A stretch of DNA of 64,000 nucleotides, from positions 2,501 through 66,500 of the forward strand of contig JAKACW010000008.1 in the NCBI GenBank assembly GCA_021821045.1. Direction: 5' to 3'. Source of the DNA: Pseudomonadota bacterium (lineage in GTDB: Bacteria > Pseudomonadota > Gammaproteobacteria > JAADHS01). The translations under genes were made by a program, and so were the position numbers. The stretch's first letter is position 1. The number at the start of each line of letters is the position of its first letter. Below are positions 9,884-26,825 of this stretch, in pieces. The notes beneath the pieces are model-generated. The model saw only the letters and a list, made by a program, of their open reading frames with translations. It had not been told where the DNA came from and searched no databases.

Positions 9884-10906
9884 TTAACGAATAGACTCGG
9901 GTGCTGCTTGCGAACGATCCGGAACTGTTGATTGTGGTTCGATCCAAGTAACCCAGACATAATCCGCCACCGCCACCAATTCCTCAGCAGTCAGGACGTT
10001 TTGCCAGGCTGGCATGGTCGTGCCGGGAAGCCCCTGCGCGATGACATCAAGCAAACCGTCGCGCGTGATCCGCGCGCGGAATTCCTCACTGGAAAAGTCG
10101 CGCGGGTGAGGCTGCAAAAAGCTGCCAATCCAGTTTTTGCCCGTCCCGTCCGCGCCGTGACAAAAAGCGCAGTTATCGAGAAACAACTGCTCGCCCCGTG
10201 CGCGCGCTACCGCGGGCGAAACCGGCGCGACGTCATGCTGAGCATAGGGCGTTGCGCCCGACACCGCATCAACCTCATTTTCAACTTCGGCGGCGCGGTG
10301 ATCGTACATCCCCCGCGGAAAGGAAATGGATCGCCGATTCCAGATGTCCGCCGCGCTGGCATCCCGCGCGCGATCATGACAGGTTATGCAGGCCGACATG
10401 TAAAGCTTGCGTCCCTCCCGCTGCGCGGGCGTCAGCGATTCCACCGCCACATCCAACGACAGTTCGCCGCCGACAAAGGGAAACGCGGCGCTGTATCGCT
10501 CGTGATTGGGCCAGCCATTGGCCGCGGTGTGGTAACGGGTTGCTTTGCGTTCTCCGCCCATGAATTCGGCACGCACGAAGTCCACCACCGCGCCGATGTC
10601 ATCCGCCGTCAACACAGACGAAAATCCCATCATCGCCGTACCCGTCTTGCCGTTGGTCACGGCTTCAACCATCGCCTCCCGGCTGAGACGCTGCGGGTCG
10701 GTCGCGGTAAACGCGCGCGGCGGCGGAGACAAATACGTGCTGGCCACCGTCTTGGCATCGCCGCTGTAGCCGTGGCAGAAATAGCAGCGGTAATTGTAAA
10801 TATCGCGGCCGCGTTCATACGGCGTTGTGGCTTGGGAGCCGGCCGCAATGGTCACCGTGGAAGGAATTGCATCCGGCGTGGCGTCAATCGACGCCGGCTC
10901 AGTCAA
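9884..10906 (-). CDS. Triheme c-type cytochrome, distal half of a split hexaheme protein
   Basis: 340 residues with three CXXCH motifs: CYFCH, CITCH and CAFCH. Domains one and three match the cytochrome CBB3-like repeat seen in the gene just upstream (PPPRAFT..., KTGTAMMGFSSVLTADDI; distal Met in the TAMM stretch). The middle domain is degenerate. It has no signal peptide; the only start is TTG at 10906, which overlaps the upstream stop. A c-type cytochrome needs export for haem attachment, so independent expression makes little sense. It most likely is the C-terminal half of one protein joined by a -1 shift at the A9 run in 10912-10920, or is separated by a homopolymer sequencing error. Confidence 0.85.
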   Translation of the reverse strand: MTEPASIDATPDAIPSTVTIAAGSQATTPYERGRDIYNYRCYFCHGYSGDAKTVASTYLSPPPRAFTATDPQRLSREAMVEAVTNGKTGTAMMGFSSVLTADDIGAVVDFVRAEFMGGERKATRYHTAANGWPNHERYSAAFPFVGGELSLDVAVESLTPAQREGRKLYMSACITCHDRARDASAADIWNRRSISFPRGMYDHRAAEVENEVDAVSGATPYAQHDVAPVSPAVARARGEQLFLDNCAFCHGADGTGKNWIGSFLQPHPRDFSSEEFRARITRDGLLDVIAQGLPGTTMPAWQNVLTAEELVAVADYVWVTWIEPQSTVPDRSQAAPESIR

Positions 10907-11967
10907 TTGGCTTTTTTTTTACTCGCGTCGGCGCTGATGAAGGCCTGAAACACATATTCGGCCACGTCGGCGATCTGCTGGGGCTCCAGAACCTTGCCCC
11001 ATGCCGGCATCACCGTTCCCGTCTTGCCTTTCGTTATGGCCGAAAACAATGCGGGACGATTAAGTGACTCGCGCGAACGCGGATCGAGAAAATTGCGGGG
11101 TGCGGGACGATTAAATTGCGCCCGAGGGCCTTGGCCGTCTCCGTTCTTCCCGTGACAGGTGAAGCAGTTGGATTGATAAAACACCTCGCCCTTCGACGGA
11201 TCACCCACGAGCCCGCTGGGCATTGCCGCGTTCATGTCGACAGGCACCGCAGCGGCAGGCGGTGGCATTGCCGCGCCGGCATGCGGACTGTGTGATGGCG
11301 CCCTATTTGCGGTCATCGCCTTGCCTAAGAACGTCCCACGAACATAGTCGACGACGATCTCGATTTCATCGGCGGTCAGTCGATCGCTGAACGACATCAT
11401 CGCCGTTCCGGGTCGACCATGGGTCACCGACGTCAGCATGCGCTCGCGAGTCAACTCGCTCATCGCCTGGGCGGTAGTGAAATCCCGGGGCGGCGGATTC
11501 AAACTCGATATCGTCCACATCGCGCCGTTGCCGTCGTCGCCGTGACAGACGGCGCAATTGCTGACATACAACTGCTGGCCTTGCGACCGGCGCAGCATGG
11601 CCGCGTCGACGGTGACATCTTCCTTGATCATGAAGTTGTCTCGAATGTAATCGACAACGGCCGCGATTTCCTCGCTCGACAGGCGCGGCTCAAACGCCAT
11701 CATGGCCGTGCCGGGCCGGCCCTTAGACACCGACGCCAACATGCGGGCCCTATCCAGCTCGGCTCGCGCAACCGGCGTGGTGAAATCCCGCGGCGGTGGA
11801 TTCAACCCGCGCCGCGCTCGGGTCATGGCATCGCCACGATCGCCATGACACACGGCGCAGTGTTCCTTGTACAGCGCCGCGCCGTCGGGCGTTGCCGCGA
11901 CAGCCGCCGCCGTTGAAAGCCACAACAACACGACTGGAATTATCAAGAGGCTGATCGCTTCACGCAT
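10903..11967 (-). CDS. Triheme c-type cytochrome, proximal half with signal peptide
   Basis: 354 residues. Signal peptide MREAISLLIIPVVLLWLSTA, then three tandem cytochrome domains with CAVCH, CAVCH and CFTCH. Each is followed by a PPPRDFTT-like strand, a RPGTAMM-like distal-Met loop and a SSEEIAAVVDYIR-like C-terminal helix. The repeats are clearly internal duplications. The start at 11967 is set by the signal peptide; an open frame continues 45 codons upstream but has no export signal. The last codons are AAA AAA AAA GCC AAT TGA and run into the next cytochrome gene (-1 frame). Likely a periplasmic electron carrier. Confidence 0.9.
   Translation of the reverse strand: MREAISLLIIPVVLLWLSTAAAVAATPDGAALYKEHCAVCHGDRGDAMTRARRGLNPPPRDFTTPVARAELDRARMLASVSKGRPGTAMMAFEPRLSSEEIAAVVDYIRDNFMIKEDVTVDAAMLRRSQGQQLYVSNCAVCHGDDGNGAMWTISSLNPPPRDFTTAQAMSELTRERMLTSVTHGRPGTAMMSFSDRLTADEIEIVVDYVRGTFLGKAMTANRAPSHSPHAGAAMPPPAAAVPVDMNAAMPSGLVGDPSKGEVFYQSNCFTCHGKNGDGQGPRAQFNRPAPRNFLDPRSRESLNRPALFSAITKGKTGTVMPAWGKVLEPQQIADVAEYVFQAFISADASKKKAN
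10912..10920 (-). other. A9 homopolymer at the junction of two cytochrome frames
   Basis: On the coding (minus) strand nine A follow AGT at the end of the upstream cytochrome frame. In the -1 frame the run is preceded by a stop (TAA) and continues AGC CAA TTG ACT straight into the downstream frame. Either -1 ribosomal slippage, RNA polymerase slippage, or one missing A in the assembly would fuse the two. Confidence 0.7.
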
Positions 11968-12353
11968 ATTCAAACTGCCAAATGTCCGTCTCAAAAAGTA
12001 CCGCCGCGACCAGTATGACCGCCGCTGGACGGTCGAATTCACCTGCCTGCCGCGCCCATCCGGCAAGTTGGAGTTTTTCACCCTATTGGGTTTAGAATAC
12101 AACCGGTGAGCCGGGGAATTACGGACAATTATAAAGAACCAAGGGGCCGCTTACTAACGAATTGAAAGCGAAAACCTCTGGGGCGGAACGAAGGATTACC
12201 TGCAGGAGCGGATTTATCCGCGATTGAATGGGTGCGGGCGAAAAATCGCGTTTCAAGCCGCTTCTACGGTAGCGTCGCCGGACCGGTCAAGTCCGCGATG
12301 TGAATTGAATCGCGCGCAAGCTCGCCCCCATACAGCGCATTTGCTGATCAAAG
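11968..12353. other. Divergent intergenic region between cytochrome genes
   Basis: 386 bases between the start of the split cytochrome (minus) and the pentaheme cytochrome (plus). It must hold both promoters. No gene is convincing; the only structured element is the REP-like pair at 12202-12268. The pentaheme ATG has no strong Shine-Dalgarno. Confidence 0.6.
12202..12268. repeat. REP-like palindrome pair
   Basis: Two ~25-base units in opposite orientation: GCAGGAGCGGATTTATCCGC followed by GATT, and the reverse of GTAGAAGCGGCTTGAAACGC followed by GATT. Same unit type as at 39627-39738 and 56369-56471: (G)TRGGAGCGG, a short imperfect palindrome, then CCGCGATT. No REP-associated transposase is in the window. 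Confidence 0.75.
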
Positions 12354-13091
12354 ATGCTACGGACAACGTTAAAAACAATCCTGGGCGCGATGGTGGCCCT
12401 GTTCGTGTTAGCCGCCGATGCGGGCACGATTTTGGGCACGAAGCATGATTTCACCGGCCTCAATCGACGAGTAGGCGTTGTGGCCATGTCGGGGGTGGCA
12501 TTTTCCGACTACGGTTCACCCTGTGTTTATTGCCACATTCCGCCTGAGAAAGAGGGCGCCGACACCGGTGACAAAGGTGGCATTCCGGGCTGGAATCGCT
12601 ATATCCCCGCCTCCACAACCTACGATCTGTACGACAGCCGAACGCTGGATAACAAAGTCAAAACCCCCAGCCCCATTAGCCTGCTGTGCCTGTCGTGCCA
12701 CGACGGCACCATGGCTGTCGACATGACCGTGTTCAAGCCCGACGCGTTCAACAGCGCCGAGGACGCCGCCCTCCACCTGCGAATCAACGGCGCGGATACC
12801 TTGATGAACTGCGGCAAGTGCCATAACGGCCAGGCTGCGCACAGTATCGAAATCAAACACCTGGGCACCGATCTGCAAAACGATCACCCCATCTCCATGA
12901 CCTACGCCGGCTTGACCCACAAGGATCCGGACTTTTGGCCGCCCGACGGTCCCTACGGCTTCAACAACGGGGTCAAGCTTTACGAAGGCAAAGTCGAATG
13001 CGCGACCTGCCACAACGTGCATAACCCAGATATAAACTTGCTGTTGCGCGAGACCTCTGACCGGCTTTGCGAAACGTGCCATATCAAATAA
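12354..13091 (+). CDS. Pentaheme c-type cytochrome (doubled-CXXCH type)
   Basis: 245 residues with an N-terminal signal peptide (cleavage near residue 22) and five haem motifs: CVYCH, CLSCH, CGKCH, CATCH and CETCH. Seven other His (for example TKHDF, NDHPIS, CHNVH) allow bis-His ligation. The opening GTKHDF, the NDHPIS motif and the ending CETCHIK are shared with the 11-haem (NTKHNF, NDHPIS) and tetraheme (NTKHNL, NDHPIG, CLTCHAK) cytochromes of the 37-52 kb cluster, so it is a paralog. An NHL lipoprotein follows, as in that cluster. Periplasmic or cell-surface electron carrier; partner unknown. Confidence 0.92.
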   Translation: MLRTTLKTILGAMVALFVLAADAGTILGTKHDFTGLNRRVGVVAMSGVAFSDYGSPCVYCHIPPEKEGADTGDKGGIPGWNRYIPASTTYDLYDSRTLDNKVKTPSPISLLCLSCHDGTMAVDMTVFKPDAFNSAEDAALHLRINGADTLMNCGKCHNGQAAHSIEIKHLGTDLQNDHPISMTYAGLTHKDPDFWPPDGPYGFNNGVKLYEGKVECATCHNVHNPDINLLLRETSDRLCETCHIK

Positions 13092-13142
13092 CCCGTGGAA
13101 AGAAGCGCCAGGCGCGCCTCGGCGGGACTGACAACGACCAAC

Positions 13143-14213
13143 ATGCGCAAAACTAGGCGTTATCCAACAACGTCCGCGATTGCTTGCGTGGGACTTGCGG
13201 CGTGCGGCTTACTCCTGGGCGCATGCACCACCACGCCGCCGCAAGAACCTGTTCAGGATATCGTCTACCCCCCGCCGCCGGCGGACCCTCGCTACCGTTT
13301 CGAACGCAGCTTGCGATTCAGCAGCAATGTGCAGCTTCCCACGGCCGCGGACAAATTGAAGAAGTTTGCCACCGGCGAATCCACCGAATTCCAGGGGCTC
13401 GTCAAGCCGTTCGATGTCGCGGTCTGGCAAGGCCGCGTGTATGTCACGGACTCCGTGCAGAACCGCGTTGTCGTTTTTGATATCCCCGGTGGCCGTTACT
13501 TCGAGTTTGGGCTCGAAGAACCGGGAGCGTTGAGCAAACCGCTCGGCATTGATGCCGGACCCAGCGGCGAAATTTATGTCATCGATGCATCCGCCAAGCG
13601 CATCCAAATCTATAATGCCGACGGGCAGTTCCTGCGCTCGATTACAAGAACAGGCTTGTTCCACCGCCCATCGGATGTCGCCGTCGACGCGGTCCGAGAT
13701 CGCATTTACGTCGTTGACACCGGCGGCGTGGAAAGCGACCAACATGGCGTGCATGTTTTCGCCCTCTCGACAGGGGAGCACCTCCGCACCCTCGGCAGCC
13801 GCGGCGAACAGGATGAGCAATTCAACCTTCCGCTGCAAATCGCGGTCGGTCCCGACGGCGCCGTCCATGTCGTCGACGGCGGCAATTTTCGCGTCGTCAC
13901 CTATGATGCGGACGGCCGCTTCCGGTCAAAGCTGGGCAAACTCGGACGTTATCCCGGACAATTCGCCCGACCCAAGGGCATCGCCGTGGACAACGGAGGA
14001 CGCGTCTATGTCGTCGACACCGCTTTCGGCAATTTTCAAATCTTTTCCACCGAAGGCGAGCTGTTGCTGTTTGTCGGTCAACGCGGTCAATCCAGCAAAC
14101 CGGGGAACTATATGTTGCCGTCCGGGATTGACGTGGATGAACAAGGCAAGGTCTATGTCGTCGACCAGTTTTTCCGAAAGGTCGACGTCTACACGCCGGT
14201 TGTGCAACCCTAA
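13143..14213 (+). CDS. NHL-repeat beta-propeller lipoprotein
   Basis: 356 residues. Lipoprotein signal with lipobox LLLGAC (C28), then repeated NHL blades such as GEIYVIDASAKRIQIYNADG and GRVYVVDTAFGNFQIFSTEG, about six, making a propeller. The N-terminal YPPPPADPRYRFE motif matches WPQPPETPRFRYV in the NHL lipoprotein at 42449-43525. The start at 13143 is chosen because it gives a proper lipoprotein leader; a GTG at 13095 is the alternative. It lies 51 bases after the pentaheme cytochrome and is likely co-transcribed. NHL propellers usually bind protein or ligand and have no enzyme motif here. Its end overlaps the convergent GGDEF-EAL gene by four bases. Confidence 0.88.
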   Translation: MRKTRRYPTTSAIACVGLAACGLLLGACTTTPPQEPVQDIVYPPPPADPRYRFERSLRFSSNVQLPTAADKLKKFATGESTEFQGLVKPFDVAVWQGRVYVTDSVQNRVVVFDIPGGRYFEFGLEEPGALSKPLGIDAGPSGEIYVIDASAKRIQIYNADGQFLRSITRTGLFHRPSDVAVDAVRDRIYVVDTGGVESDQHGVHVFALSTGEHLRTLGSRGEQDEQFNLPLQIAVGPDGAVHVVDGGNFRVVTYDADGRFRSKLGKLGRYPGQFARPKGIAVDNGGRVYVVDTAFGNFQIFSTEGELLLFVGQRGQSSKPGNYMLPSGIDVDEQGKVYVVDQFFRKVDVYTPVVQP

Positions 14214-16687
14214 GCGGCGCCGCGGGCCGGCCAGCGGCATTTTTCGAGCCAGGCGGTCAAATCGTCAGCGGACAACGGCTCGCTGACGTAGAATCCCTGG
14301 ACCGCATCGGCGCCCAGTTCCTTCAACCGCTCGTATGTATCCTCCGTTTCAACCCCTTCGGCGATTACCGTCATGCCGACATTGTGGGCCAGATCGACAA
14401 TGGAGCGAACGATAACCGCGTCGTTGTCGTTCTTGTCCATTGCCGTCACGAAGGACTTGTCGATTTTTAGCTCCTTGACCGGCAGTTGCCGCAAATATGC
14501 GAGCGACGAATGACCGGTACCGAAATCGTCGATCGACAGCCTCACCAGCATGTTGCTCAAATCCGCCAAAACTTCGTGCGCGCGTCGCGGATCGGCCATG
14601 ATCGCCGTTTCGGTGATCTCCATAAACAACTTCTCGGGCGCCCGCCCCATTGCTTCGACAATCTTGGCGACCCGCTCGGGAAACTGCATGTCCTGCAAAT
14701 TACGAACGGACATGTTGACCGACATTTCCAGGTCCAGCCCGCTCTGGCGCCATTGAACCTGTTGCCGCAAGGCTTCCTTGAGCACCCACAGCGTGAGCGG
14801 TTTGATTAATCCCGTTTGCTCGGCGAGTGGAATGAACTCATCGGGCAGCATCAGCCCATGCTCGGGATGACGCCAACGCACCAGCGCTTCGACAGCATGA
14901 ACCCGCTCCGTGCGCAGATCCACTTTTGGCTGATAGAACAGCACAAGCTCGTCGAGATCGATCGCGTTGCGCAAGTCGCCGAGAAGCGCAAGCGTGCGGG
15001 GATTGTGCTCGTCCTTTGCCGGGTCATACAACGCATAACCGCGGGTTGCCCGCTTGGCCACGTACATCGCCACATCCGCCAAACGCAGCAGCGTAACCTC
15101 ATCCTCGCCATGTTCGGGGAACAGCGCGATGCCGATGCTGCCGCCGACGTGCAAGCTCTGCCCCTCCAGTATGAACGGCCGATCCAGCGACTTAAGCAAT
15201 TTTTCGGCGACTTGAACGGCATGATCCCGGTCGGAGGTATTCAGCAGCACGGCGAACTCGTCTCCGCCCAGACGCGCCACAGTATCCGATTCCCGCAGCG
15301 CCTCACGCATTCGCTTGGCCACCTGCTGCAATATCAGATCGCCGTAGTGATGGCCTAACGTGTCATTGATTTCTTTAAAGTGATCCAGATCCATCAGCAG
15401 CAAAGCAAACTGCTCCTTGTTGCGCTGCGCCCGCAAGACAGTTTGTTTCAGACGATCCGCGAGCAATGATCGGTTTGGCAAATCGGTAAGCGCGTCGTGA
15501 AGGGCCTGGTGCTCGATGGCGGCGGATTGTTTCTTGCGCTCGGTGATGTCGCGCACCACGCCGATGAAGTGCCGGTGATCGTCGGTGCGCATCTCGCTCA
15601 AACCGAGCTCGAGCGGAAAAGTTTCGCCACTCTTGCGCAAACCGACAAACTCCGTCGCTCGACGCCCAAGAATGTTGCCTTTGCCGGTGCGCAGATAGTT
15701 CTCGATATAGCGGTCGTGCATGCTCTTGTAGGGCTCAGGCATCAAAATGGACACATTCTGCCCAACCAGTTCATGGGCCGTGTAACCGAAGATTTCCAAC
15801 GCCGCCGGATTGACTGATTCGATGCGCCCTTTCTCGTCGATAATTATGATCGCCTCCATGACGTTATCCATCACGGAGCGAATGCGGGTTTCGGTGGCGT
15901 GCAGGCTGCGCTGCATGCGGTTGAATCCCTGCGCCAGCTCGCCCAACTCGTCCTTCCACTCCACGGGCAGCCGGGCGTCGCGATCGCCCTGCCCCACGCG
16001 ATTGATTGCCTCGCGCAGCAGGTTGATCGGGGCGAGCACGTTGACCCGCAAGGTAAGCAACAACGCCGCGGACAACACCAGCACTAGGATGAACGCGATA
16101 ACCCACAAGCTGTGGCGCATCTCCGAAATCCGGCGTTCCCGCACCTCGGTGGACAGCGATAGCTTCAGAATGCCGCGCAACATGGAGGGATCGTAGCCAT
16201 GGCAGGCCATGCACTCGGTCTGGGTGGCGATGGGCATGAATACGGTTATTTGATCGACTTGCTCGGTGTCGAACGCGATCATGCCGCCGGCAGCCTTGGA
16301 CAGAGCAGTCCCGTTTTTAACCGCCTGACCGCGACCGCGAACAGGCTCACGGGAAAACCGGGGCATCTTCAGAAACTCGTTCACTGAGTTAACGGTGTCC
16401 AGATCCGTAAACGCTTCTTCGCCGGTGGTGCGCAAGACCTGGATGTCGGCGATGCCTTCCGCATCTTTCATGCGGTCGAGCCACTCGCGGGCAAGAGTGC
16501 CCTGGCCGTTGAGCATTAACGTTTGCAGACTGGCCAAGAGCGTCTTGGCATGGGTTTCGGCTTGACTGATTTCCTCGTCATGAATGGCATGGGTCAACTG
16601 CCGTTCAATCCAAAACCCCGCCAGAAGCATGAGCGCAAACAGCACCCCGGCCAAGACCAACGCAAGTCGCGTTCCCAAGCTACGCAT
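14210..16687 (-). CDS. Membrane GGDEF-EAL protein with a periplasmic c-haem motif
   Basis: 825 residues: TM1 (8-26), a periplasmic sensor (27-193), TM2 (194-213), HAMP (215-265), PAS (268-385), GGDEF (about 395-550; intact GGDEF at 474-478 and I-site RESD) and EAL (about 565-810; EALVRW, and DDFGTGHSSL of the phosphodiesterase site). The sensor contains CMACH at 159-163 (bases 16199-16213), a c-type haem attachment site placed where Ccm acts. So it probably is a redox or gas sensor that sets c-di-GMP. Both catalytic domains look intact. It lies 126 bases downstream of the propeller genes and could share their transcript. Confidence 0.93.
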   Translation of the reverse strand: MRSLGTRLALVLAGVLFALMLLAGFWIERQLTHAIHDEEISQAETHAKTLLASLQTLMLNGQGTLAREWLDRMKDAEGIADIQVLRTTGEEAFTDLDTVNSVNEFLKMPRFSREPVRGRGQAVKNGTALSKAAGGMIAFDTEQVDQITVFMPIATQTECMACHGYDPSMLRGILKLSLSTEVRERRISEMRHSLWVIAFILVLVLSAALLLTLRVNVLAPINLLREAINRVGQGDRDARLPVEWKDELGELAQGFNRMQRSLHATETRIRSVMDNVMEAIIIIDEKGRIESVNPAALEIFGYTAHELVGQNVSILMPEPYKSMHDRYIENYLRTGKGNILGRRATEFVGLRKSGETFPLELGLSEMRTDDHRHFIGVVRDITERKKQSAAIEHQALHDALTDLPNRSLLADRLKQTVLRAQRNKEQFALLLMDLDHFKEINDTLGHHYGDLILQQVAKRMREALRESDTVARLGGDEFAVLLNTSDRDHAVQVAEKLLKSLDRPFILEGQSLHVGGSIGIALFPEHGEDEVTLLRLADVAMYVAKRATRGYALYDPAKDEHNPRTLALLGDLRNAIDLDELVLFYQPKVDLRTERVHAVEALVRWRHPEHGLMLPDEFIPLAEQTGLIKPLTLWVLKEALRQQVQWRQSGLDLEMSVNMSVRNLQDMQFPERVAKIVEAMGRAPEKLFMEITETAIMADPRRAHEVLADLSNMLVRLSIDDFGTGHSSLAYLRQLPVKELKIDKSFVTAMDKNDNDAVIVRSIVDLAHNVGMTVIAEGVETEDTYERLKELGADAVQGFYVSEPLSADDLTAWLEKCRWPARGAA

Positions 16688-16813: not shown

Positions 16814-18073
16814 TCAGCCCGAGAAGAGATCCCTCGCCAGGCGTGCGACACCGCCAAAACTTCCGACCCAAAGGCTGCCGTCCTTCGCTTTGGCCATGGA
16901 AAAGACATTGTCGGCATACAGGCCGTCGTTAACCGTAAAGACCTTGAAGCGCTTCGCCTTGCGATCGACGCGAGCCAACCCCTTGCTGGTGCCTGCCCAC
17001 AGCACGCCCTCGCCGTCGAGATGCAGCATGAAGATATGATTTCCCGGCAAGCCGTCCAGAGTGGTGAAGTTCTCCCATTTCTGACCGTCGAAACGTGCGA
17101 GGCCGCCGCCCCAGGTGCCGCACCAGACAATGCCGTCCTCATCGACCGCCAACGAAATGATGTAGTTGGGGTTGAACGCGACATCCACATCCTCCAGCCC
17201 TTGGGCGAGCTTTTGCTCCGCATGATGCTTGGAGGCCTTGGCGGGGTCGTTGGTAAACTGAATGGCGTCTTTGACAAGATCGAACTGTGCGCCGAGCCCG
17301 TCCTTGTGCTGCCAGTTTGTCCACTTCCCGTTTTCGAACCGCGCCAGCCCCGCTTCGGTGGCAAACCACAGCGCGCCGTCTTTTCCGACCTCGACGCCGT
17401 AAACCCAGGGATTGGGCAATCCGCCTTGGGTATTCTCGACGGAGAATGTTTCCCAACTCGCCGGATCGGCAAAGTTGCCGCCTTTCACGCGATTTACACC
17501 CGACCACGTCGCGATCCACACGTCGCCGTCGGGCGCGCGCTCGACGTCGTACACGAATTGATCGGCCAAACCGTGGGGTATGTTGTAGTTGCGCCACTCG
17601 CCCGTCGCGGTGTCGAGCACGGACATGCCGCCGCCGTAACTGCCGACAATGAGCTGATGATCAAGTTTGCTGACGTGAAATATACCATTGGACAAAATGC
17701 CGGGAGTCATATTGTCAAACACTTTGTATTGGTCCGTTTTCGACTCGTAGCGAATAACACCGCCGGAGGTTCCCAACCACACGATGTCGTCTTCGGCGAA
17801 AAGGGCTTTGACGTTGCGGTTGCCGATCTCAAAGTGGGCGATGCCGCCGCTACCGTGAAAACCTGTCGCACCCGCCGATGCTCCTGTGCCCATGGCGTGT
17901 TTAGCCGGCGATGACGCGGACGATGGCACTGCGGTCCGTTGCTCGCCGTCAGTGCTTGCGGTCTGGACCTCGGGCGACTGGGAACGACGGGAACTTTCTT
18001 GGCCCAACTCGTAAAACAATACCGCGACCACCGCACAGACAATGACCACAACACCGACTAAACGCGCATTCAT
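16814..18073 (-). CDS. Membrane-anchored Reg_prop beta-propeller protein
   Basis: 419 residues. One N-terminal transmembrane anchor (about 5-22), a Ser/Thr-rich linker, then two-component-regulator-propeller (Reg_prop) blades, for example DGIVWCGTWGGGLARFDGQ, GVLWAGTSKGLARVDR and GSLWVGSFGGVARLAR. Such blades normally form the sensor of hybrid histidine kinases, but here there is no kinase part. The start at 18073 has GAGG upstream and follows the stop of the paralogous gene by ten bases; an ATG 20 codons upstream would overlap it. Acts on the periplasmic face; ligand unknown. Confidence 0.87.
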   Translation of the reverse strand: MNARLVGVVVIVCAVVAVLFYELGQESSRRSQSPEVQTASTDGEQRTAVPSSASSPAKHAMGTGASAGATGFHGSGGIAHFEIGNRNVKALFAEDDIVWLGTSGGVIRYESKTDQYKVFDNMTPGILSNGIFHVSKLDHQLIVGSYGGGMSVLDTATGEWRNYNIPHGLADQFVYDVERAPDGDVWIATWSGVNRVKGGNFADPASWETFSVENTQGGLPNPWVYGVEVGKDGALWFATEAGLARFENGKWTNWQHKDGLGAQFDLVKDAIQFTNDPAKASKHHAEQKLAQGLEDVDVAFNPNYIISLAVDEDGIVWCGTWGGGLARFDGQKWENFTTLDGLPGNHIFMLHLDGEGVLWAGTSKGLARVDRKAKRFKVFTVNDGLYADNVFSMAKAKDGSLWVGSFGGVARLARDLFSG

Positions 18074-18083
18074 TTCGTCATCC

Positions 18084-19223
18084 TCACTTGCCCACGCCCG
18101 GGGTCTCCGCGTCGACACCCACGCGCGCCACACCCGATCGCGTGCCTACCCATACGTCCGCTCCGACAGCCGCGACCGCATAAACGTGATTATCCAGAAG
18201 CCCGTCTCGCTTGGCGTAGGTGAACCAGGTGCGCCCGTCGTAGCGCGACAAGCCCTGATTGGTGCCGAACCAGAAAACACCCTTATCATCCTGCGCGACC
18301 GCATAAACGATATCGCCTGCCAAGCCATCCTTGGTTGTCAGGTTGCGCCACCCTTTGCCATCGAACACACTGACGCCGCCGCCCCATGTGCCGGCCCAAA
18401 CCGTTCCGTCGGCAGCCGCGTGCAGTGCGAATACATAAGACGGATTGTAGGTTTCCTCGCCCTCACGCAACACGTTCAAATCGTGGCGCGAGCGCGTGCC
18501 CAGTCCGGTATTCACGCTGGCGGGAAGGTTGCGCTGATTGGGCGCGCCCAGACCGTCGGCGTGGGTCCAGCTTTGCCATGCCTTGCCGTCAAACATCGAT
18601 ACGCCGCCTTCCGTGCCAAACCAGACATTGCCGCTTCTGTCGACGTCGATTCCGTACACCCACTCGTTGATCAGCTCCTTCACATAGGTCTCGAAGGACG
18701 CACTGCCCCGCGCAAGGCGGTTTACACCCGCCCAGGTGCCAATCCATAAATTTCCGTCCGCCTGCTCGCCGAAGGAGTAGACCCAGTAGTCGGCAAGACC
18801 GTGCATGGGAAAGTAGGTGCGCCACTGGTTGTCGACAAATCGCGTGACGCCGCCGCCGTTGGTCCCGAACCACGTGGCACCCTGTTTGTCGACATGGATG
18901 GCGAATACATATTCATTGGCGAGACCCGCCTCGCGGGTAAACGTGTTCTTGAGATTGGATGTCGCAAGATCGACTTCCAGTACGCCGCCCGAGGTCCCTA
19001 CCCACAGCGACCCACGTTTAGCGTCGACAGCAAGCGACCTCACGTATATATCGCGACCGACGTTGAAGGCGTCCAGGACTCGATGCTGCGAATCGGTCGA
19101 GGGACTCTCCTGTGTCGCGACGGGCGCCGTTGCGCTGGCCGGGTCATCGCTATGCGAGCTGCACCCAAAAAGCAGTGCGCCCGCAATGACTGCGCCGAAC
19201 CGCGCTGGAGAGTGAAGACTCAC
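18084..19223 (-). CDS. Reg_prop beta-propeller lipoprotein
   Basis: 379 residues. Lipobox LLFGC (C21) then Reg_prop blades (GSLWVGTSGGVLEVDL, GATWFGTNGGGVTRF, GNLWIGTWAGVNRLA, GTVWAGTWGGGVSVFDGKGW). Clearly a paralog of the next gene (shared TWGGG, DGLGA and NPSYVFALH/NPNYIISLA segments). The ATG overlaps the stop of the small cytochrome gene (ATGA), so the cytochrome and both propellers are translationally linked. No catalytic motif; a binding or sensing scaffold at the periplasmic or outer membrane is the best guess. Confidence 0.88.
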   Translation of the reverse strand: MSLHSPARFGAVIAGALLFGCSSHSDDPASATAPVATQESPSTDSQHRVLDAFNVGRDIYVRSLAVDAKRGSLWVGTSGGVLEVDLATSNLKNTFTREAGLANEYVFAIHVDKQGATWFGTNGGGVTRFVDNQWRTYFPMHGLADYWVYSFGEQADGNLWIGTWAGVNRLARGSASFETYVKELINEWVYGIDVDRSGNVWFGTEGGVSMFDGKAWQSWTHADGLGAPNQRNLPASVNTGLGTRSRHDLNVLREGEETYNPSYVFALHAAADGTVWAGTWGGGVSVFDGKGWRNLTTKDGLAGDIVYAVAQDDKGVFWFGTNQGLSRYDGRTWFTYAKRDGLLDNHVYAVAAVGADVWVGTRSGVARVGVDAETPGVGK

Positions 19224-19531
19224 TGAAATGTCCGCAAGAACGCCACGACGTCGAGGATTTCTTGTTCGGTCAAGAGGCCGTCGAACGCGGGCATGACGCG
19301 CACGCCGTCGCGGATCGACTGCGCCAGTTCACTGTCGGGCGCAAACAGTTTTTCGCCGCGACTGAAATCGGGCGCACCCGGCATCACACCGAAACCCGTG
19401 TCGCCGTGGCAAGAGATGCAGTGCCGTTGATACAACGCGCCGCCGTTAGCGACATCCGCAGCGTGGGTCGCGGCACTCAAAAACAATGCCATGCCCAGCA
19501 GGGTCCTAAAACAAATTTTCGTTCTCGCCAT
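19220..19531 (-). CDS. Small monoheme cytochrome c (class I)
   Basis: 103 residues: signal peptide (about 1-24), CISCH at 38-42, and a distal Met in RVMPAFDGLLTEQEI, a class I / cytochrome c5-like layout. The start at 19531 has GGAGGGG five bases upstream; the open frame continues far upstream without a signal. Located between the TlpA-like lipoprotein and a propeller lipoprotein with a four-base overlap to the latter. Probably a soluble periplasmic electron carrier, perhaps the redox partner of the neighbouring propellers. Confidence 0.9.
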   Translation of the reverse strand: MARTKICFRTLLGMALFLSAATHAADVANGGALYQRHCISCHGDTGFGVMPGAPDFSRGEKLFAPDSELAQSIRDGVRVMPAFDGLLTEQEILDVVAFLRTFQ

Positions 19532-19614
19532 GCCATCCCCTCCCATAGGAATACCGCCTCGACCTGTGACCGCGTCACTACTAAGCAGACTTTTCGCCGG
19601 GCAAATTTCGGCGC

Positions 19615-20190
19615 CTATTCTAGCAAAATCGGCTGCCCGTCCCGCCACGCTTGTTCGAGCAGCGCAACGGTCTGCGCCGTGTGCCAGGTCCGCTCGCCCA
19701 AGACCACCGCCAGAATCGTGCCGTCGCGACCGACAACCACCGTAGCCGGATAGGTCTGAATCCAACCCAGTTGCTTTACCCACTCTCCGCCGCGATCGAT
19801 CAAATTCGGATAACTCACGCCCTTGTTCGCCAAATACTCGCCGACTTGGCGCGGGTCATCGTCGATGGATAAGCCCACCACGGCAAAGCGGCTGTTGTTT
19901 AGTGCATCATGCAGTTTTTCCAGACTGGGCAGTTCGCGACGGCAGGGCGGGCACCACGTCGCCCAAATGTTGAGCACAACCACGCGGCCCGCGTCGTCGA
20001 ACGTTTGCGCCGGCGCGCCGGCAAGGGTTTGCAGCCCCTGTGGCGCAGGCATCTTGCTGCCCACCAGTGCGGGGGGCTCGACCTCGGAACATGCGCCAAG
20101 GAAGCTCGATATACCGACAATCAACAAAGCGGCGAGAACGCTGCGCACTCGCGCCGAATCACACTCACCCGAATTACGGCACCATTTCAT
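19615..20190 (-). CDS. TlpA/ResA-like thiol-disulfide lipoprotein
   Basis: 191 residues. Lipobox SFLGAC (C34), then a thioredoxin fold with WCPPC (C80, C83) in NIWATWCPPCRRELPSLEKL. It starts 17 bases inside the end of ccmI, so it belongs to the ccm operon. A periplasmic reductant is needed to keep apocytochrome CXXCH thiols reduced, so this is probably a second reductase beside CcmG. Its cis-Pro loop (TYPATVVV) is also present. Confidence 0.88.
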   Translation of the reverse strand: MKWCRNSGECDSARVRSVLAALLIVGISSFLGACSEVEPPALVGSKMPAPQGLQTLAGAPAQTFDDAGRVVVLNIWATWCPPCRRELPSLEKLHDALNNSRFAVVGLSIDDDPRQVGEYLANKGVSYPNLIDRGGEWVKQLGWIQTYPATVVVGRDGTILAVVLGERTWHTAQTVALLEQAWRDGQPILLE

Positions 20191-21577
20191 CGATGACGAT
20201 ATCGAGACCCGTCGCGCCGACTTTCACAGTCTGACTGAAGCCTTGCAGATCGCCGCTCTGCGGCATGGCGTTGCCCGACTTAGAAACACGCGCGCCGACG
20301 ACGACGTCAGAGACGGTTGCCAGCGACATTCCCGGCGCCATGGACATGGATGAGTCAAGAGTGAACGAAATCGGCAACTCGTTCGCCTGCTTCTTGATGA
20401 TTGCCAGCGGCATGCGCGGCCCGCTCGCGGCGCGGGCAAACACGAATACCGTATCCGAAGGATCGACTTTGTCTTGCAGTTGCGCGCTCAAGGTCACCGT
20501 TCCCGCTAACGTAGCGTTCGCAGCCTCGGGCTGCGCCGTCACAGCAATCTGCGTCGATGCCGGCACTGCCTGACCGGCGGCGCGCATCTTGGCTTCGATT
20601 TCTTGAATGTTGCCCGCCATGATCTGTGCTTCCTCGGAATCCGGCGGAACGATCGCCGCGATACGCCGCCAATACGTCAAAGCGGTGGCGAACTCGCCCG
20701 CTTCATAGGCATGGGTCCCGAGCAACCAGAGTGCGCGAACATGATTCGGCTGCACTTCGAGCGCTTTATGAATCACCCGCAAAGGCTCGCCTTCGAGAAT
20801 GCCATTGCTCGCCAGGGCCAAGCTGTCGGCATAATCGGCCATCAAGTCGGCGAAACCTTCGCCGGCCATCTGCGGATTGGCCTCGATCATCGGCATCACT
20901 TTTTTATACGCCGCCGCGGCTTCGACATGCTTTTTATCCATGCGGTAAGCCGTCGCCAACAACAGGTTGGCTTGCATGTCATTGGGATCCTGGCTCAACA
21001 AAGCCATCAGCCGGCCGCGCATCTTAGCCAACGCCTTGGACGCTTCGTCGTTCTTTTGCATGAACTGATAGGATCGCGCCAGCATCAGCCAACCTTCCCA
21101 ATCGTCGGGGTTGGAGTCCAAACGCGCGACGAGCTGTCCCACCATCGCTTCGATTTGCGCACCCGTGTCCTTGTGGTCGCCGCTGCCGGCTTGCGAGACA
21201 ATGGGTCCCTGCCCGGTGATCGCATTGGGACTGCCCAAATGGTTGTACAAAGCAACTGACGCAACCGGAACGGCAATCAACAGCGCGACCGCCGTAGCCC
21301 GCGCCCCGCCGGACTTTTCCGCCTTGCTCTTTGCGCCCGCGGTGTCTTGCAGCAATCGGCGCTCGATCTCGTGTCGCGTGCGCTCGTAATGCTCTTCGGT
21401 GATAACTTTGTTGGCGCGATCCTGTTCCAGCTCGGCCAACTGGTTCCTGTAAACCGCGATATTCAACTCCGTGTGATCAACGCCGGGCTCGGCGACGGAC
21501 TCTTTCAAAAGCGGGGGAACAATAAACAACAAGGCAGCGATGACTAAGCAAATCGCAACCAACCAAAAAATTGTCAT
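20174..21577 (-). CDS. ccmI: Cytochrome c maturation protein CcmI (CycH)
   Basis: 467 residues. Two transmembrane helices (about 4-22 and 95-113) flank a cytoplasmic leucine-zipper-like stretch; then periplasmic TPR repeats (about 150-330) and a C-terminal domain of CycH type. CcmI binds the apocytochrome C-terminus and presents it to the CcmFH haem lyase. Its ATG overlaps the ccmH stop. Length is in the upper range for two-domain CcmI. Confidence 0.9.
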   Translation of the reverse strand: MTIFWLVAICLVIAALLFIVPPLLKESVAEPGVDHTELNIAVYRNQLAELEQDRANKVITEEHYERTRHEIERRLLQDTAGAKSKAEKSGGARATAVALLIAVPVASVALYNHLGSPNAITGQGPIVSQAGSGDHKDTGAQIEAMVGQLVARLDSNPDDWEGWLMLARSYQFMQKNDEASKALAKMRGRLMALLSQDPNDMQANLLLATAYRMDKKHVEAAAAYKKVMPMIEANPQMAGEGFADLMADYADSLALASNGILEGEPLRVIHKALEVQPNHVRALWLLGTHAYEAGEFATALTYWRRIAAIVPPDSEEAQIMAGNIQEIEAKMRAAGQAVPASTQIAVTAQPEAANATLAGTVTLSAQLQDKVDPSDTVFVFARAASGPRMPLAIIKKQANELPISFTLDSSMSMAPGMSLATVSDVVVGARVSKSGNAMPQSGDLQGFSQTVKVGATGLDIVIDEMVP

Positions 21578-22068
21578 GAATTAGGTTTCTCCGATGAGGC
21601 GGAATCGGCGAGCAAGGCCGCGACCCGCTGTTGTTCTTCTTGTGACAGAGGCGATCGCTCGTCAACCGCTCGGCGGCGACGGCGCGCTAAATTGAACAGC
21701 AATAACGCCAGGGCACCGGCCATGAGCACAAAGGGGCCGATCCAAAGCAACGCCGTCGAGGCTTTGAACGCCGGCATGTAGCGCACAAAATCGCCGTAGC
21801 GAACCTCCATGAACTCGACGATCTCGGCCTGGTCCTTTCCGGCCGCCACCATTTCCCTCACCTCGCGCCGCAGGTCCAGCGCCAACGGTGCATGAGAATC
21901 GGCAATGGTTTGATTTTGGCAAACCAGGCAACGCAGTTCTTTGGAAATTTCCATCGTCTTGTGTTCGATGTCGGGATCCGCCGCCATGGGCAGCGCTTCC
22001 TTGGCCTGCGCGGCGATCGCGCATGACACGGCAAAAACAGCAGTCGACATCAATGCAATTAAGCGCAT
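21574..22068 (-). CDS. ccmH: Cytochrome c maturation protein CcmH
   Basis: 164 residues. Signal peptide, the LRCLVCQNQTIADS thioredoxin-like motif (C47, C50) and a C-terminal transmembrane helix (about 105-126). It acts in the haem lyase complex on the apocytochrome CXXCH thiols. The start at 22068 is internal to a longer open frame that only shadows ccmG; it overlaps the ccmG end by ten bases. Short CcmH form, with CcmI separate. Confidence 0.93.
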   Translation of the reverse strand: MRLIALMSTAVFAVSCAIAAQAKEALPMAADPDIEHKTMEISKELRCLVCQNQTIADSHAPLALDLRREVREMVAAGKDQAEIVEFMEVRYGDFVRYMPAFKASTALLWIGPFVLMAGALALLLFNLARRRRRAVDERSPLSQEEQQRVAALLADSASSEKPNS

Positions 22069-22622
22069 GCTTTCACTACCTCTTCCGCAACGGGCTGGTC
22101 CTGCTTCAGCGCCCTCACCATCGGCAAAAGGCAGTTCTGCACCCGCGAGGGCGACACTGGACCGATCACTTTGTGTCGAATGACGCCCTCTTTGTCGATG
22201 ACGAACGTTTCCGGCACGCCGTAAACGCCGAAATCGATACCGACGCGACCGTCCAGATCGAAAGCGCTGAGGACATAAGGATCGCCAAACTGTTTGAGCC
22301 AACGCAGGCCGTCTTGCCGTTCGTCTTTGTAATTCAAACCGTAGATCGGCACTTCCTTCATACGGGAAAGATTGACGAGCACCGGATGCTCCTCCCGGCA
22401 CGATACGCACCAAGACGCCCAGACGTTGAACAACCAGACTTGGCCCCGCATATTTTCCGGGCCGAAGCTCGCCTCGGGATCGTGCAGTTGGGGCAACGTG
22501 AATGCCGGGGCCGGTTTGTTGATCAGCGGCGAACTCACCACCGTCGGGTTTTGGCCCAACCCCACGTACAACAAAACTGCCAGCGCGATAAAAATGATAA
22601 GTGGCGCAAGATACCGAACCAT
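22059..22622 (-). CDS. ccmG: Thiol-disulfide reductase CcmG (DsbE)
   Basis: 187 residues. N-terminal membrane anchor (about 4-22) and a periplasmic thioredoxin fold with WASWCVSCREEHP. The active site is WCVSC rather than the usual WCPTC/WCxPC, a slight departure. The glycine-valine-proline cis-Pro loop GVYGVPETFVID is normal. It reduces CcmH or the apocytochrome. The ATG at 22622 overlaps the ccmF stop by one base. Confidence 0.93.
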   Translation of the reverse strand: MVRYLAPLIIFIALAVLLYVGLGQNPTVVSSPLINKPAPAFTLPQLHDPEASFGPENMRGQVWLFNVWASWCVSCREEHPVLVNLSRMKEVPIYGLNYKDERQDGLRWLKQFGDPYVLSAFDLDGRVGIDFGVYGVPETFVIDKEGVIRHKVIGPVSPSRVQNCLLPMVRALKQDQPVAEEVVKACA

Positions 22623-24604
22623 CAGCGAGACGCCTCCAGCGCCGCGCCATGAGCCGTTTCCTGCGCGGCACGCCGCGCCACACGATAGCGCCGATCGCTC
22701 ATCGCCAACATGCCGCCCAACGCCATAATCGCGCAGCCGCTCCAAATCCAGGTGACGAACGGTTTGTAGTACACGCGCACGCTCCAAGCGCTGCCCCCAA
22801 GCGGTTCACCCAGCGCCACGTAGAGCTGACTGAAAAACCCGGATTCGATGGCCGCTTCCGTCATGGGATTTTGCTGAACGTTGTAAATACGCTTCTCCGG
22901 ACGCAAGACCACGAAAGGCTGTCCGTCTTTGCTGACGGTGATCGCGCCCTGATCGGCCCGATAGTTCGGCCCCTGTACGCGGATCGTGCCATCGAAGCGA
23001 AACACGTAATCATTCATGACCAAGGTATCGCCGATATCCATTCGGACGTCTTTTTCTTGGTCGTAACCTTCGACGAAAGTCACGCCGAGAATGAAAATCC
23101 CGACACCGCAATGCGCCAGCAACATACCCCAGTAGTGGCGCGGCTGCTTGAGCATTTTTGCGCCCAGCGAGTCATTGCCGCTCATGGACTGGAGGCGAGT
23201 CACCAAGTTGGTAAGGCTGGAGGAGAAGATCCAGAACGCGAGGAACAACCCGACCGGCACCACCCAGCGCCAGCCGCCCATCACGAACGGCAGCACCAAG
23301 GCCGCAACAATGGCGGCGACGAACGCCGGCACGAGTCGACGTGCGATTTCCGACGGATTGCCCTGTTTCCATCGCACCAGCGGACCGACACCCATCATCA
23401 AAATCACCGGCGCCATGAGAATCGCAAAAAACATGTCAAACCACGGCTTGCCGACGGACAGATTCGCGCCGGTTAGCCACTGGTGGGCGATGGGGTAGAT
23501 GGTGCCGAGCAATACCGCACCGCACGTTGCGGTGAGCATGACGTTCCCCATGAGCAACAAACTTTCGCGGGAAAACAATTCGAAATCCCCACCGAAACCC
23601 ACTTTGGGCGCGCGCCAGGCATAGAGCACCAGCGAAACGATGATCACAATGGCCAGAAACGCCAAGATGAACGAGCCGCGCTCGGGATCGTTGGCGAACG
23701 CGTGAACCGAAACGAGCACACCCGAACGAACAAGGAAGGTTCCCAACAAGCTCAGCGAAAAAGCCATCAACGCCAGCAAAATTGTCCAGTTGCGGAATGT
23801 GCCGCGCTTGTCGGTGACCGCCAGGGAGTGCATCAACGCGGTGCCGATCAACCACGGCATGAACGACGCATTTTCAACCGGATCCCAGAACCACCAGCCG
23901 CCCCAGCCGAGTTCGTAATATGCCCACCAACTGCCCAAGGCGATGCCGGCGGTAAGAAAAACCCACGCCGCCGTCGTCCAGGGGCGAGACCAGCGCGCCC
24001 ACGCGGCATCAACTTTGCCACCCAACAACGCGGCGATGGCAAACGCGAAGGCGACCGAAAAACCCACATAGCCCATGTACAACATCGGCGGATGAATCGC
24101 CAAGCCAGGATCTTGCAGCAGAGGATTCAGGTCGCGTCCATCCGGCTGCATGGGGATGCGCTCGAACGGGTTGGAGGTCAGCAACATGAACAGATGGAAT
24201 CCGATGGCGACAAAACCCATTACGCCGATCACCCGCGCCACGGTCGCTTGATCCAAATGCCGGCTAAACCAGGCTACGGCCACCGTCCAGACATTCAGCA
24301 TGAGCACCCACAACAGCAGCGAGCCCTCATGGCCGCCCCACACGCCGGATACTTTATAGAGCGTGGGAAGCTGGGAGTTGGAGTGGGATACGGCATACAG
24401 AACGGAGTAGTCATTATTCAGAAAGGCGTAAGTCAGACAGGCGAAAGACAAGGCGACGAACACGAATTGTCCTTGCGCCACCGGACGGGCCGTGGCCATC
24501 CACGACGCCTTACCCAGTCCGGCGCCCGCGATCGGCAATACGGTCTGTACAACGGCCAAGCACAGCGCAATGATCAACGCGAAATGTCCTATTTCTGGCA
24601 CCAT
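22622..24604 (-). CDS. ccmF: Haem lyase subunit CcmF
   Basis: 660 residues, standard length, with many transmembrane helices. The tryptophan-rich haem-binding WWD segment reads GWGGWWFWDPVENASFMPW. CcmF with CcmH and CcmI joins haem from holo-CcmE to CXXCH thiols in the periplasm. It begins 34 bases after ccmE. Confidence 0.96.
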   Translation of the reverse strand: MVPEIGHFALIIALCLAVVQTVLPIAGAGLGKASWMATARPVAQGQFVFVALSFACLTYAFLNNDYSVLYAVSHSNSQLPTLYKVSGVWGGHEGSLLLWVLMLNVWTVAVAWFSRHLDQATVARVIGVMGFVAIGFHLFMLLTSNPFERIPMQPDGRDLNPLLQDPGLAIHPPMLYMGYVGFSVAFAFAIAALLGGKVDAAWARWSRPWTTAAWVFLTAGIALGSWWAYYELGWGGWWFWDPVENASFMPWLIGTALMHSLAVTDKRGTFRNWTILLALMAFSLSLLGTFLVRSGVLVSVHAFANDPERGSFILAFLAIVIIVSLVLYAWRAPKVGFGGDFELFSRESLLLMGNVMLTATCGAVLLGTIYPIAHQWLTGANLSVGKPWFDMFFAILMAPVILMMGVGPLVRWKQGNPSEIARRLVPAFVAAIVAALVLPFVMGGWRWVVPVGLFLAFWIFSSSLTNLVTRLQSMSGNDSLGAKMLKQPRHYWGMLLAHCGVGIFILGVTFVEGYDQEKDVRMDIGDTLVMNDYVFRFDGTIRVQGPNYRADQGAITVSKDGQPFVVLRPEKRIYNVQQNPMTEAAIESGFFSQLYVALGEPLGGSAWSVRVYYKPFVTWIWSGCAIMALGGMLAMSDRRYRVARRAAQETAHGAALEASR

Positions 24605-24638
24605 ACTTGGGTCCCCCGTGAGTTGTTCTAGTTACGGA

Positions 24639-25106
24639 TTATGGAATGACGGTCGTTTGATTCACGTTCTGCATCGCGGCGGCGGCTTTTCCTTGTTCGA
24701 GTGCTTTCGCGACCTCCGGCGGCATATATGTCTCGTCATGCTTGGCCAGAACTTCGTCGGCGATGAAAACGCCGGCGCCATCCAGCTTGCCTTGTGCGAC
24801 CACGCCCTGCCCTTCCTTGAAAAGGTCGGGAAGAATGCCGGTGTACATCACCGTGACTTCCTCGGCATTGTCGGTGACGGTAAAGGCGACGGTTAAGCCG
24901 TCGGCGACGCGCTGCATCGACCCCTCTTTCACCATGCCACCCAAACGGAAGGCCTTGGCAACCGGGGCCTCTTTGGCGGCCACTTGCGACGGACTGAAGA
25001 AGAACATCATGTTTTGTTGGAAGGCGAACAGGACTAACGTCGCGGCGATGCCGATACCGACCACACCCGCTGCCACAAACACCAATCTTTTTTGTCTCGG
25101 TTTCAC
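24639..25106 (-). CDS. ccmE: Haem chaperone CcmE
   Basis: 155 residues: N-terminal anchor (about 8-29) and an OB-fold periplasmic domain. The covalent haem ligand is H123, with Y127, in [15 protein letters not shown] start, overlapping the ccmD stop (GTGA). Carries haem from CcmABCD to CcmF. Confidence 0.95.
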
Positions 25107-25270
25107 GCCGACTCCCTCTCTTTGATTCTTATCATTCGACTAAGCTGATGCAGGATGGTTCGGCGGCGGCGGCGCAACATTAACACCTCAACCAAAAGGC
25201 AAACCGCGACCATACCGTAGGAGCCCCACACGAAAAAGGCGTATTTTCCCATGTCGAAGTATTCGGCCAC
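25103..25270 (-). CDS. ccmD: Small membrane protein CcmD
   Basis: 55 residues, found by translating the gap between ccmC and ccmE. GTG start three bases after the ccmC stop; the stop overlaps the ccmE start. It has one transmembrane helix ([20 protein letters not shown]) followed by a basic RRRRR stretch, the CcmD layout. It helps release holo-CcmE from the CcmABC complex. An internal ATG at 25252 is an alternative start. Confidence 0.9.
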
Positions 25271-25273
25271 CGC

Positions 25274-26038
25274 TTACGCATCCCCGCTTTTGACTAAGTC
25301 TTGCACCCAATCGTTGTTTTTCTCGCGCTCCACCATCTCGCAGCGAACCCGATACAACGCAACCGCAATCGTGTAACACCAAAAACAAAAAGTCATTAGA
25401 AGCATTGCGACAAACATGCTGTCGGTCATGCTCAAGGCGCGTTGATCGGCGCCCGCCGGGTTGAAGTTAATGCTCGAGCCTTGATGAAGCGTGCTCCACC
25501 ACTTAACGGAAAAGTAAATGATCGGCACATTGACGACGCCGACGATGGCCAGCAAACCCGTGGCGCGATCCGCCCGCCGTGGATCCTCGATAGCCGAGGC
25601 CAACGCGATGTAGCCAATATATAGAAAGAAGAGGATAAGCTGGGAGGTCAAGCGTGCGTCCCACACCCAGTAGGTGCCCCAGGTGGGTTTCCCCCACAGG
25701 GCGCCAGTCCACAACCCAAGAAACGCAAAGATCGCCCCCGTCGGCGCCAACGCACTGCCCATCATGAAGGACAAGCGGGTCTTGAAAATCATGCCGACGA
25801 TGGCCCAAAACGCCATGACGACGTAAATAAACATGGACATCCAGGCCGCCGGCACGTGGATAAACATGATTTTGTAGGACTGACCCTGCTGCCAGTCCGC
25901 CAGCGGCGCGACGAAGAAGCTCACGTACAGCCCCACCAATCCGAACAGCACCGCCGCCGCGGTGAACCAAGGAATCATGCTGCCGGCAAGGGGGTAGAAG
26001 CTTGCAGGGGATGAATACTTAAACCAGTTGATAGACAC
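25274..26038 (-). CDS. ccmC: Haem exporter/handling protein CcmC
   Basis: 254 residues with six predicted membrane helices and the WWD-type segment WGTYWVWDARLTSQL plus conserved external His (IFIHVP-like MFIHVPAAW). CcmC attaches haem to CcmE. 119 bases separate it from ccmB with no gene in between, so an internal promoter is possible. Confidence 0.95.
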   Translation of the reverse strand: MSINWFKYSSPASFYPLAGSMIPWFTAAAVLFGLVGLYVSFFVAPLADWQQGQSYKIMFIHVPAAWMSMFIYVVMAFWAIVGMIFKTRLSFMMGSALAPTGAIFAFLGLWTGALWGKPTWGTYWVWDARLTSQLILFFLYIGYIALASAIEDPRRADRATGLLAIVGVVNVPIIYFSVKWWSTLHQGSSINFNPAGADQRALSMTDSMFVAMLLMTFCFWCYTIAVALYRVRCEMVEREKNNDWVQDLVKSGDA

Positions 26039-26157
26039 GGGACGTTGTTCTCATTATTTGATCGACGCGCTCAGGCCGGTACGGTCCGCGCGGGAGAATC
26101 ACTGCTCGTTTTCGACGTCATCATAACGATACGAAACACTCTCACTACATAAACGCA

Positions 26158-26823
26158 TCATTCGAAGGCGATACGCAGGGCCGCGGCAGTTGCCCACGGC
26201 GCCAACACCAGGGACAGCAACAGACCGGCCCCAAGCAGAGCCAGATGGGCCTCGGCGCCTAAGCCCGACACCGTCGCGTCGACGGCTCCGGCGCCAAAAA
26301 CCAGCACCGGAATATACAGGGGCAGCACCAACAACGACACCAACGCGCCGCCGCCGCGCAGGCCCAAGGTCAACGCCGCGCCAATTGCACCCAAAAAACT
26401 CAATATGGGCGTGCCCAACAGCAGCGCTGCCACCAACACCAGCAAAGCGTCTGCCGACAAATCGTACTGCAGCCCCAGCAATGGTGTGATCAACACCAAG
26501 GGCACACCCGACAACAGCCAGTGCGCGATGATCTTGCCCATTACAAGCAGACCAAGAGGCTGGGGAGCAATCAGCATCTGCTCCAAGGTCCCGTCCATGT
26601 AATCGTTATAAAACAACCGCCCGAGGGACAGCATGGAAGCCAAAAGCGCGGCTACCCACATGACTCCTGGAGCGATCGTACGCAGCGTATCTGCTTCGGG
26701 ACCGATGCCTAAGGGAAACAGGCTGACGACGATTATAAAGAAAAACAAGACGGTTAGAACATCCGCCTTGCGCCGCATCGCGATGGTTAGATCCCGAACC
26801 AAAATGCTGCGGAGCGCGCCCAC
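26158..26823 (-). CDS. ccmB: Haem ABC exporter permease CcmB
   Basis: 221 residues, six membrane helices, with the family motif DGTLEQMLIAPQPL. It forms the CcmAB transporter that releases holo-CcmE from CcmCD. It starts two bases after the ccmA stop. Confidence 0.94.
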   Translation of the reverse strand: MGALRSILVRDLTIAMRRKADVLTVLFFFIIVVSLFPLGIGPEADTLRTIAPGVMWVAALLASMLSLGRLFYNDYMDGTLEQMLIAPQPLGLLVMGKIIAHWLLSGVPLVLITPLLGLQYDLSADALLVLVAALLLGTPILSFLGAIGAALTLGLRGGGALVSLLVLPLYIPVLVFGAGAVDATVSGLGAEAHLALLGAGLLLSLVLAPWATAAALRIAFE

Positions 26824-26825
26824 CT

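Follow-up and report, generated by a model that had tools for sequence, protein, structure and literature searches.

We describe an 825–amino acid c-di-GMP enzyme that, judging from its sequence and its modeled fold, almost certainly carries a covalently bound heme outside the inner membrane. The enzyme is encoded in a 64,000-nucleotide stretch of gammaproteobacterial DNA (hereafter, the window), and its sensor domain probably reads the periplasmic redox state or nitric oxide (NO). The explanation that we favor, and consider likely, is a c-type heme held by His163 and Met58, whose redox- or NO-driven ligand switch sets c-di-GMP turnover, most likely on the EAL side of the enzyme.

The gene lies on the reverse strand at positions 14210 to 16687 (open reading frame and Pfam assignments), and its start codon (MxSLG) is kept in the alignment of orthologues. 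The protein is of the sCache_heme-HAMP-PAS-GGDEF-EAL type: a short N-terminus and a first transmembrane helix (TM1) precede approximately 165 periplasmic residues, which are followed by a second transmembrane helix (TM2) and the four remaining domains. TM1 (residues about 8 to 28; 16604 to 16666) is a hydrophobic stretch within a long helix of the model (residues 4 to 59), and TM2 (residues about 193 to 213; 16049 to 16111), recognized from the sequence, falls within the model helix 181 to 224. The sensor domain between them (residues about 29 to 192; 16112 to 16603) has a heme-binding single Cache fold according to profile, model, and structure matches. It contains the motif CMACH (residues 159 to 163; 16199 to 16213), the predicted c-type heme attachment site, with Cys159 and Cys162 as attachment residues and His163 as proximal ligand. 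Since the two long model helices flank the sensor domain, the CXXCH is expected on the periplasmic side, in the loop and at the exact coordinates where a sequence-only reading of this DNA had placed it.

On the other side of TM2 are the HAMP domain (residues 216 to 264; 15896 to 16042; PF00672), a cytoplasmic PAS domain (residues 268 to 381; 15545 to 15886; PF00989/PF13426), the GGDEF domain (residues 395 to 549; 15041 to 15505; PF00990), and the EAL domain (residues 571 to 804; 14276 to 14977; PF00563), all on the reverse strand. The GGDEF active site and I-site (RESDTVARLGGDEF) are intact, as are all catalytic motifs of the EAL domain, which bears out the earlier description of a catalytically equipped GGDEF-EAL protein. 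Promoter and terminator scans around the gene stayed at shuffle level and carry no information on operon structure.

The CXXCH is a conserved property of this sensor. We searched at class level, in 94 and then 369 genomes, and found strong matches in 20 (the window's own genome included), with 39 to 61% identity over the sensor, plus a few distant ones. In the resulting alignment of 24 sequences (A1), C159, C162, H163, and G164 are invariant. A wider alignment (n = 53) includes a further 29 sensors that come from outside the class but within the phylum. Here, C159, C162, and H163 are present in 53 of 53 sequences, at identities down to about 25%, and so are G61, R86, A92, F93, D95, T98, V102, N103, F111, P152, and G172; M58 is present in 52. 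Loss of the motif from close homologues had been named beforehand as the observation that would count against a heme sensor, and the motif was kept first in 24 of 24 and then in 53 of 53. Because the query or profile used to collect homologues includes the motif, the sample may be mildly biased; the matches span the full domain. A CXXCH appeared in 73 of 200,000 shuffles of residues 28 to 193, and on this rate together with the 53/53 conservation we rejected a chance origin. Seven other GGDEF/EAL proteins of the same genome were inspected, and all lack a CXXCH. A scan of genome contigs (genome_contigs) turned up a single relative.

The sensor belongs to the structural family of the known c-heme sensors. 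The A1 profile, searched against the Protein Data Bank, retrieved 3B42 (GSU0935; E = 8e-7) and 3B47 (GSU0582; E = 1e-6), both solved c-heme sensors; 5B82 (Tll0287) was reached with an E value of only 1.3, and a search with the single sequence gave chance matches only. The AlphaFold2 model of the sensor (pLDDT 85.5, pTM 0.74) is a single Cache domain in which helix 157 to 163 holds the CXXCH, between strand 146 to 154 and the last strand, 170 to 179. Foldseek searches with this model placed 3B42/3B47 at ranks 1, 3, and 4, with 14 to 16% identity, so that the fold prediction proposed as a check agrees with a heme sensor. The large rmsd of these matches fits the domain-swapped dimers reported for the crystals (PMC8396549). 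VIA-align returned WalK, CitA, TlpB, and other Cache domains (Z about 9 to 11). 5B82 was not among the best 50 Foldseek or VIA matches, which is no evidence of a different fold.

No Pfam model covers the sensor domain above its cut-off. The closest are PF21563 (Mcp40H-20_sensor, Geobacter type), with 15.9 to 17.1 bits against a cut-off of 27, and PF11845 (Tll0287-like), with 14.9 to 15.7 bits against a curated cut-off of 24.1; some A1 homologues match PF21563 better than the 825–amino acid protein does (best E = 4e-9). A whole-genome search with PF11845 misses the protein. In the same genome, two short open reading frames (238 to 243 amino acids; G000:C140:3149-3598 and G000:C109:24103-24564) do exceed the PF11845 cut-off and, from their sequences, are probable stand-alone heme Cache proteins. 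The family sCache_heme (DUF3365/Tll0287-like, PF11845; Deshpande et al. 2026, PMC12889525) is defined by a single Cache domain with a short CXXCH helix inserted after the third strand and before the fourth. Our sensor has the CXXCH, this fold with the helix in this place, a relation to solved members, and an extracytoplasmic location. It is thus a member of the wider structural family sCache_heme that is not captured by the PF11845 model. It also differs from PF11845 proteins in its predicted ligands, having no axial Cys of the Tll0287 type and a near-invariant Met instead.

These results bear on a reading without a signaling heme, in which the CXXCH forms a disulfide or binds a metal, or carries a heme with a purely structural role, and the domain responds to a small ligand as an ordinary Cache domain would. 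Cache domains do usually bind small ligands (PMC12889525). Against this, homologous domains with the same motif have been solved with covalent heme (3B42 and 3B47), the CXXCH never varies and the distal Met almost never, and cytochrome c maturation (ccm) genes are adjacent in most orthologues. We consider this reading very improbable.

Met58 (16514 to 16516, reverse strand) is the predicted distal ligand. Residue counts in the profile alignments show that Met60 of GSU0935 and Met60 of GSU0582 both align with position 58; the match rests on a low-scoring N-terminal alignment segment (5.5 and 10.2 bits) and is the same in both Geobacter proteins. Met60 binds the reduced heme of the Geobacter sensors and is displaced by NO and CO, and redox-linked release was proposed as the signal (PMC8396549). 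A third Cys is absent from our sensor, which is therefore not Cys-ligated like Tll0287. For a tested sCache_heme relative, the proposed occupant of the sixth site is water rather than Met (PMC12889525). The conserved Met of the sensor described here favors a redox-linked ligand switch.

The sequence-only reading had offered redox state, NO, or O2 as the signal. Homology to c-heme sensors supports such a reading, but the three candidates deserve unequal weight. In P. azotoformans, an sCache_heme protein with a HAMP domain bound NO tightly (koff 6e-4 per s) and gave no stable complex with O2 (PMC12889525); by analogy O2 would be the least likely signal. A dedicated NO sensor, in which NO binds ferrous heme, displaces Met58, and lowers or raises c-di-GMP, draws support from the same protein and from the displacement of Met60 by NO in the Geobacter sensors. 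Yet no endogenous source of NO was found with the cd1 nitrite reductase and NirK families in 20 cluster-bearing genomes. The cd1 search gave only short, weak hits (G053, G076, and G242) and no clear full-length match, and no NirK exceeded its cut-off, with divergent multicopper matches present. In a search bearing on the metabolism of the lineage, dsrA remained under its cut-off. Furthermore, the neighborhood consists of respiratory cytochromes and ccm genes, not nitrogen-oxide genes. The lack of a clear cd1 nitrite reductase or NirK in the sensor-bearing genomes slightly, and indirectly, favors redox over NO, and we regard a dedicated NO sensor as possible, if rather unlikely.

The motif, its conservation, the family and fold, the Met58–Met60 correspondence, the intact catalytic motifs, and the fixed gene position are computed observations, from which we infer how heme attachment, ligation, signal, direction of response, and main output could be connected in the favored ligand switch. 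The Ccm system would attach heme to Cys159 and Cys162, and the iron would be ligated by His163 on the proximal and Met58 on the distal side. Met58 would be bound in the reduced heme and released on oxidation or on binding of NO or CO. Its release would cause movement in a dimer, transmitted through TM2 and HAMP to PAS-GGDEF-EAL, and alter c-di-GMP turnover. The EAL phosphodiesterase is most likely the activity that is switched, with GGDEF as a regulator or a second activity. The sensor would thereby report the redox state of the periplasmic pathway whose cytochromes are encoded in its surroundings, or else NO.

Natural variants are informative about the output. All the EAL-bearing orthologues that were checked retain the EAL motifs. 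In one orthologue (L053, which shares its record with L009), GGDEF has degenerated to GGDKY and the I-site is broken, with the EAL motifs intact, and the L058 and L131 orthologues lack the I-site Arg. Because EAL motifs persist while GGDEF and I-site decay in some orthologues, the sequences lean, weakly, toward phosphodiesterase as the conserved output. The best NCBIfam similarity of residues 259 to 811 is to the phosphodiesterase DibA, well below cut-off. In G203 (same genus as G076), an orthologue at the same place (L131:10541-12517) has lost the entire sensor by an in-frame change: TM1 is joined directly to TM2, and PAS, GGDEF, and EAL are kept open.

The sensor gene has a fixed neighborhood, with cytochrome genes on both sides, as had been noted. 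On the same strand and in order toward it are the cytochrome c maturation operon (ccmA, B, C, E, F, G-like, H, and I; 20174 to 27449), a thioredoxin-like lipoprotein of Redoxin/TlpA type (19615 to 20190), a mono-heme cytochrome c (19220 to 19783, its true start probably within the open reading frame), propeller 2, a lipoprotein Reg_prop β-propeller (18084 to 19223), and propeller 1, a membrane-anchored periplasmic Reg_prop β-propeller (16814 to 18073). The sensor gene had been described as lying just downstream of ccm; the operon is indeed nearby on the same strand, but the thioredoxin-like gene, the mono-heme cytochrome, and the two propeller genes lie between. On the forward strand, a convergent pentaheme c7-like cytochrome (12354 to 13091) and an NHL-repeat lipoprotein (13095 to 14213) approach from the other side, the 3′ end of the latter overlapping that of the sensor gene by 4 bases. 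Two tri-heme cytochromes (9884 to 10906 and 10903 to 12102) follow on the reverse strand. Of the 18 cluster neighborhoods fetched, 13 have ccm genes within reach, as does the window; four have no ccm in the stretch, and a contig end truncates the remaining one.

In all 20 sensor-bearing genomes, which represent eight families, propeller 1 lies immediately upstream of the sensor gene and on the same strand. It is anchored by one helix, and the best solved matches of its model are periplasmic sensing propellers of Bacteroides hybrid two-component systems. Both observations support a multiprotein periplasmic complex, compatible with the ligand switch, in which propeller 1, together with propeller 2 and the mono-heme cytochrome, passes electrons or a ligand signal on to the heme Cache domain. 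Against it, co-location does not show contact, and 23 other genomes (G203 counted) have propeller 1 with no sensor beside it; we judge such a complex to be unlikely. A constant association of the propellers with the sensor was rejected on the same 23 genomes, which also indicate that the propellers serve a separate function. In its broadest form, also a doubtful proposition, the mono-heme cytochrome and the two anchored propellers encoded with ccm would form one sensing complex with the heme Cache domain, report the state of a periplasmic electron pathway (pentaheme and tri-heme cytochromes, NHL lipoprotein), and couple respiration to attachment or dispersal.

In the sensor-less clusters that we looked at, the slot beside propeller 1 is often filled by a Kelch-like lipoprotein and a second pentaheme cytochrome (L126, L129, L134, and L136). 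The cluster of ccm, mono-heme cytochrome, two propellers, NHL lipoprotein, pentaheme, and tri-heme genes is itself kept over many families, with or without the sensor (window 6200 to 27449; L040-L058, L120-L139). We found no published function for this cluster, and nothing in the literature on propellers combined with cytochrome c maturation.

In the sensor gene tree, the cluster sensors mostly group by family (SH-aLRT support only, with several weak forks), a pattern consistent with prolonged vertical inheritance at a single site. Other classes of the phylum (G369-G620) have sensor relatives in several copies per genome, with up to nine matches. Outside the lineage, the sensor did not adjoin ccm, propeller, or cytochrome genes in the 15 stretches checked. 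Most of the other-class relatives inspected join the sensor to GGDEF without EAL or to a histidine kinase; thus, EAL is not its general output.

The sequence-only reading considered c-type periplasmic sensors of GGDEF proteins to be much less known than cytoplasmic ones. As a kind, c-heme sensors on c-di-GMP enzymes are already published, and a stricter reader could see here a mere new member. The 2026 sCache_heme preprint names GGDEF/EAL output fusions and a HAMP-linked member that binds NO (PMC12889525). A 2023 survey of Gallionellaceae lists a cluster of CXXCH-bearing GGDEF/EAL proteins (cluster 400, count 36, “diguanylate cyclase with PAS/PAC sensor; cyclic di-GMP phosphodiesterase Gmr”), which, compared by the table listing alone, shares one CXXCH on a GGDEF/EAL-type protein (PMC10734462). 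The table of c-di-GMP heme and NO sensors in a 2022 review gives PAS, globin, HNOB, or NosP types, and we came across no covalent periplasmic heme there (PMC8846402). We found no assay of a c-heme c-di-GMP enzyme in the open-access literature.

The closest solved relatives, GSU0935 and GSU0582, are methyl-accepting chemotaxis proteins of Geobacter sulfurreducens that share the periplasmic location, the CXXCH, the Cache/PAS-like fold, and the Met60 equivalent to Met58. One covalent c-heme was solved there and is predicted here; their output is chemotaxis signaling, whereas ours is c-di-GMP, and the identity of the structural matches is only 14 to 16%. Escherichia coli DosP (EcDOS), a heme-regulated c-di-GMP phosphodiesterase, has a His/Met heme, as predicted for our protein, and release of its Met95 switches EAL activity (PMC4263535), so that Met release controls a GGDEF-EAL enzyme. 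In contrast, DosP is a soluble enzyme that binds its heme noncovalently in a PAS domain, while ours is a predicted covalent heme c in a periplasmic Cache domain.

The new elements are a branch of Met-bearing sensors that score below Pfam thresholds, the ccm/propeller/cytochrome setting conserved around them, and an orthologue that has lost the sensor. The conserved Met, the fixed neighborhood, and the sensor-less orthologue in G203 make both the signal and the switched activity directly testable. If our explanation is true, a covalent periplasmic heme would give the enzyme direct access to respiration on the outer side of the inner membrane.
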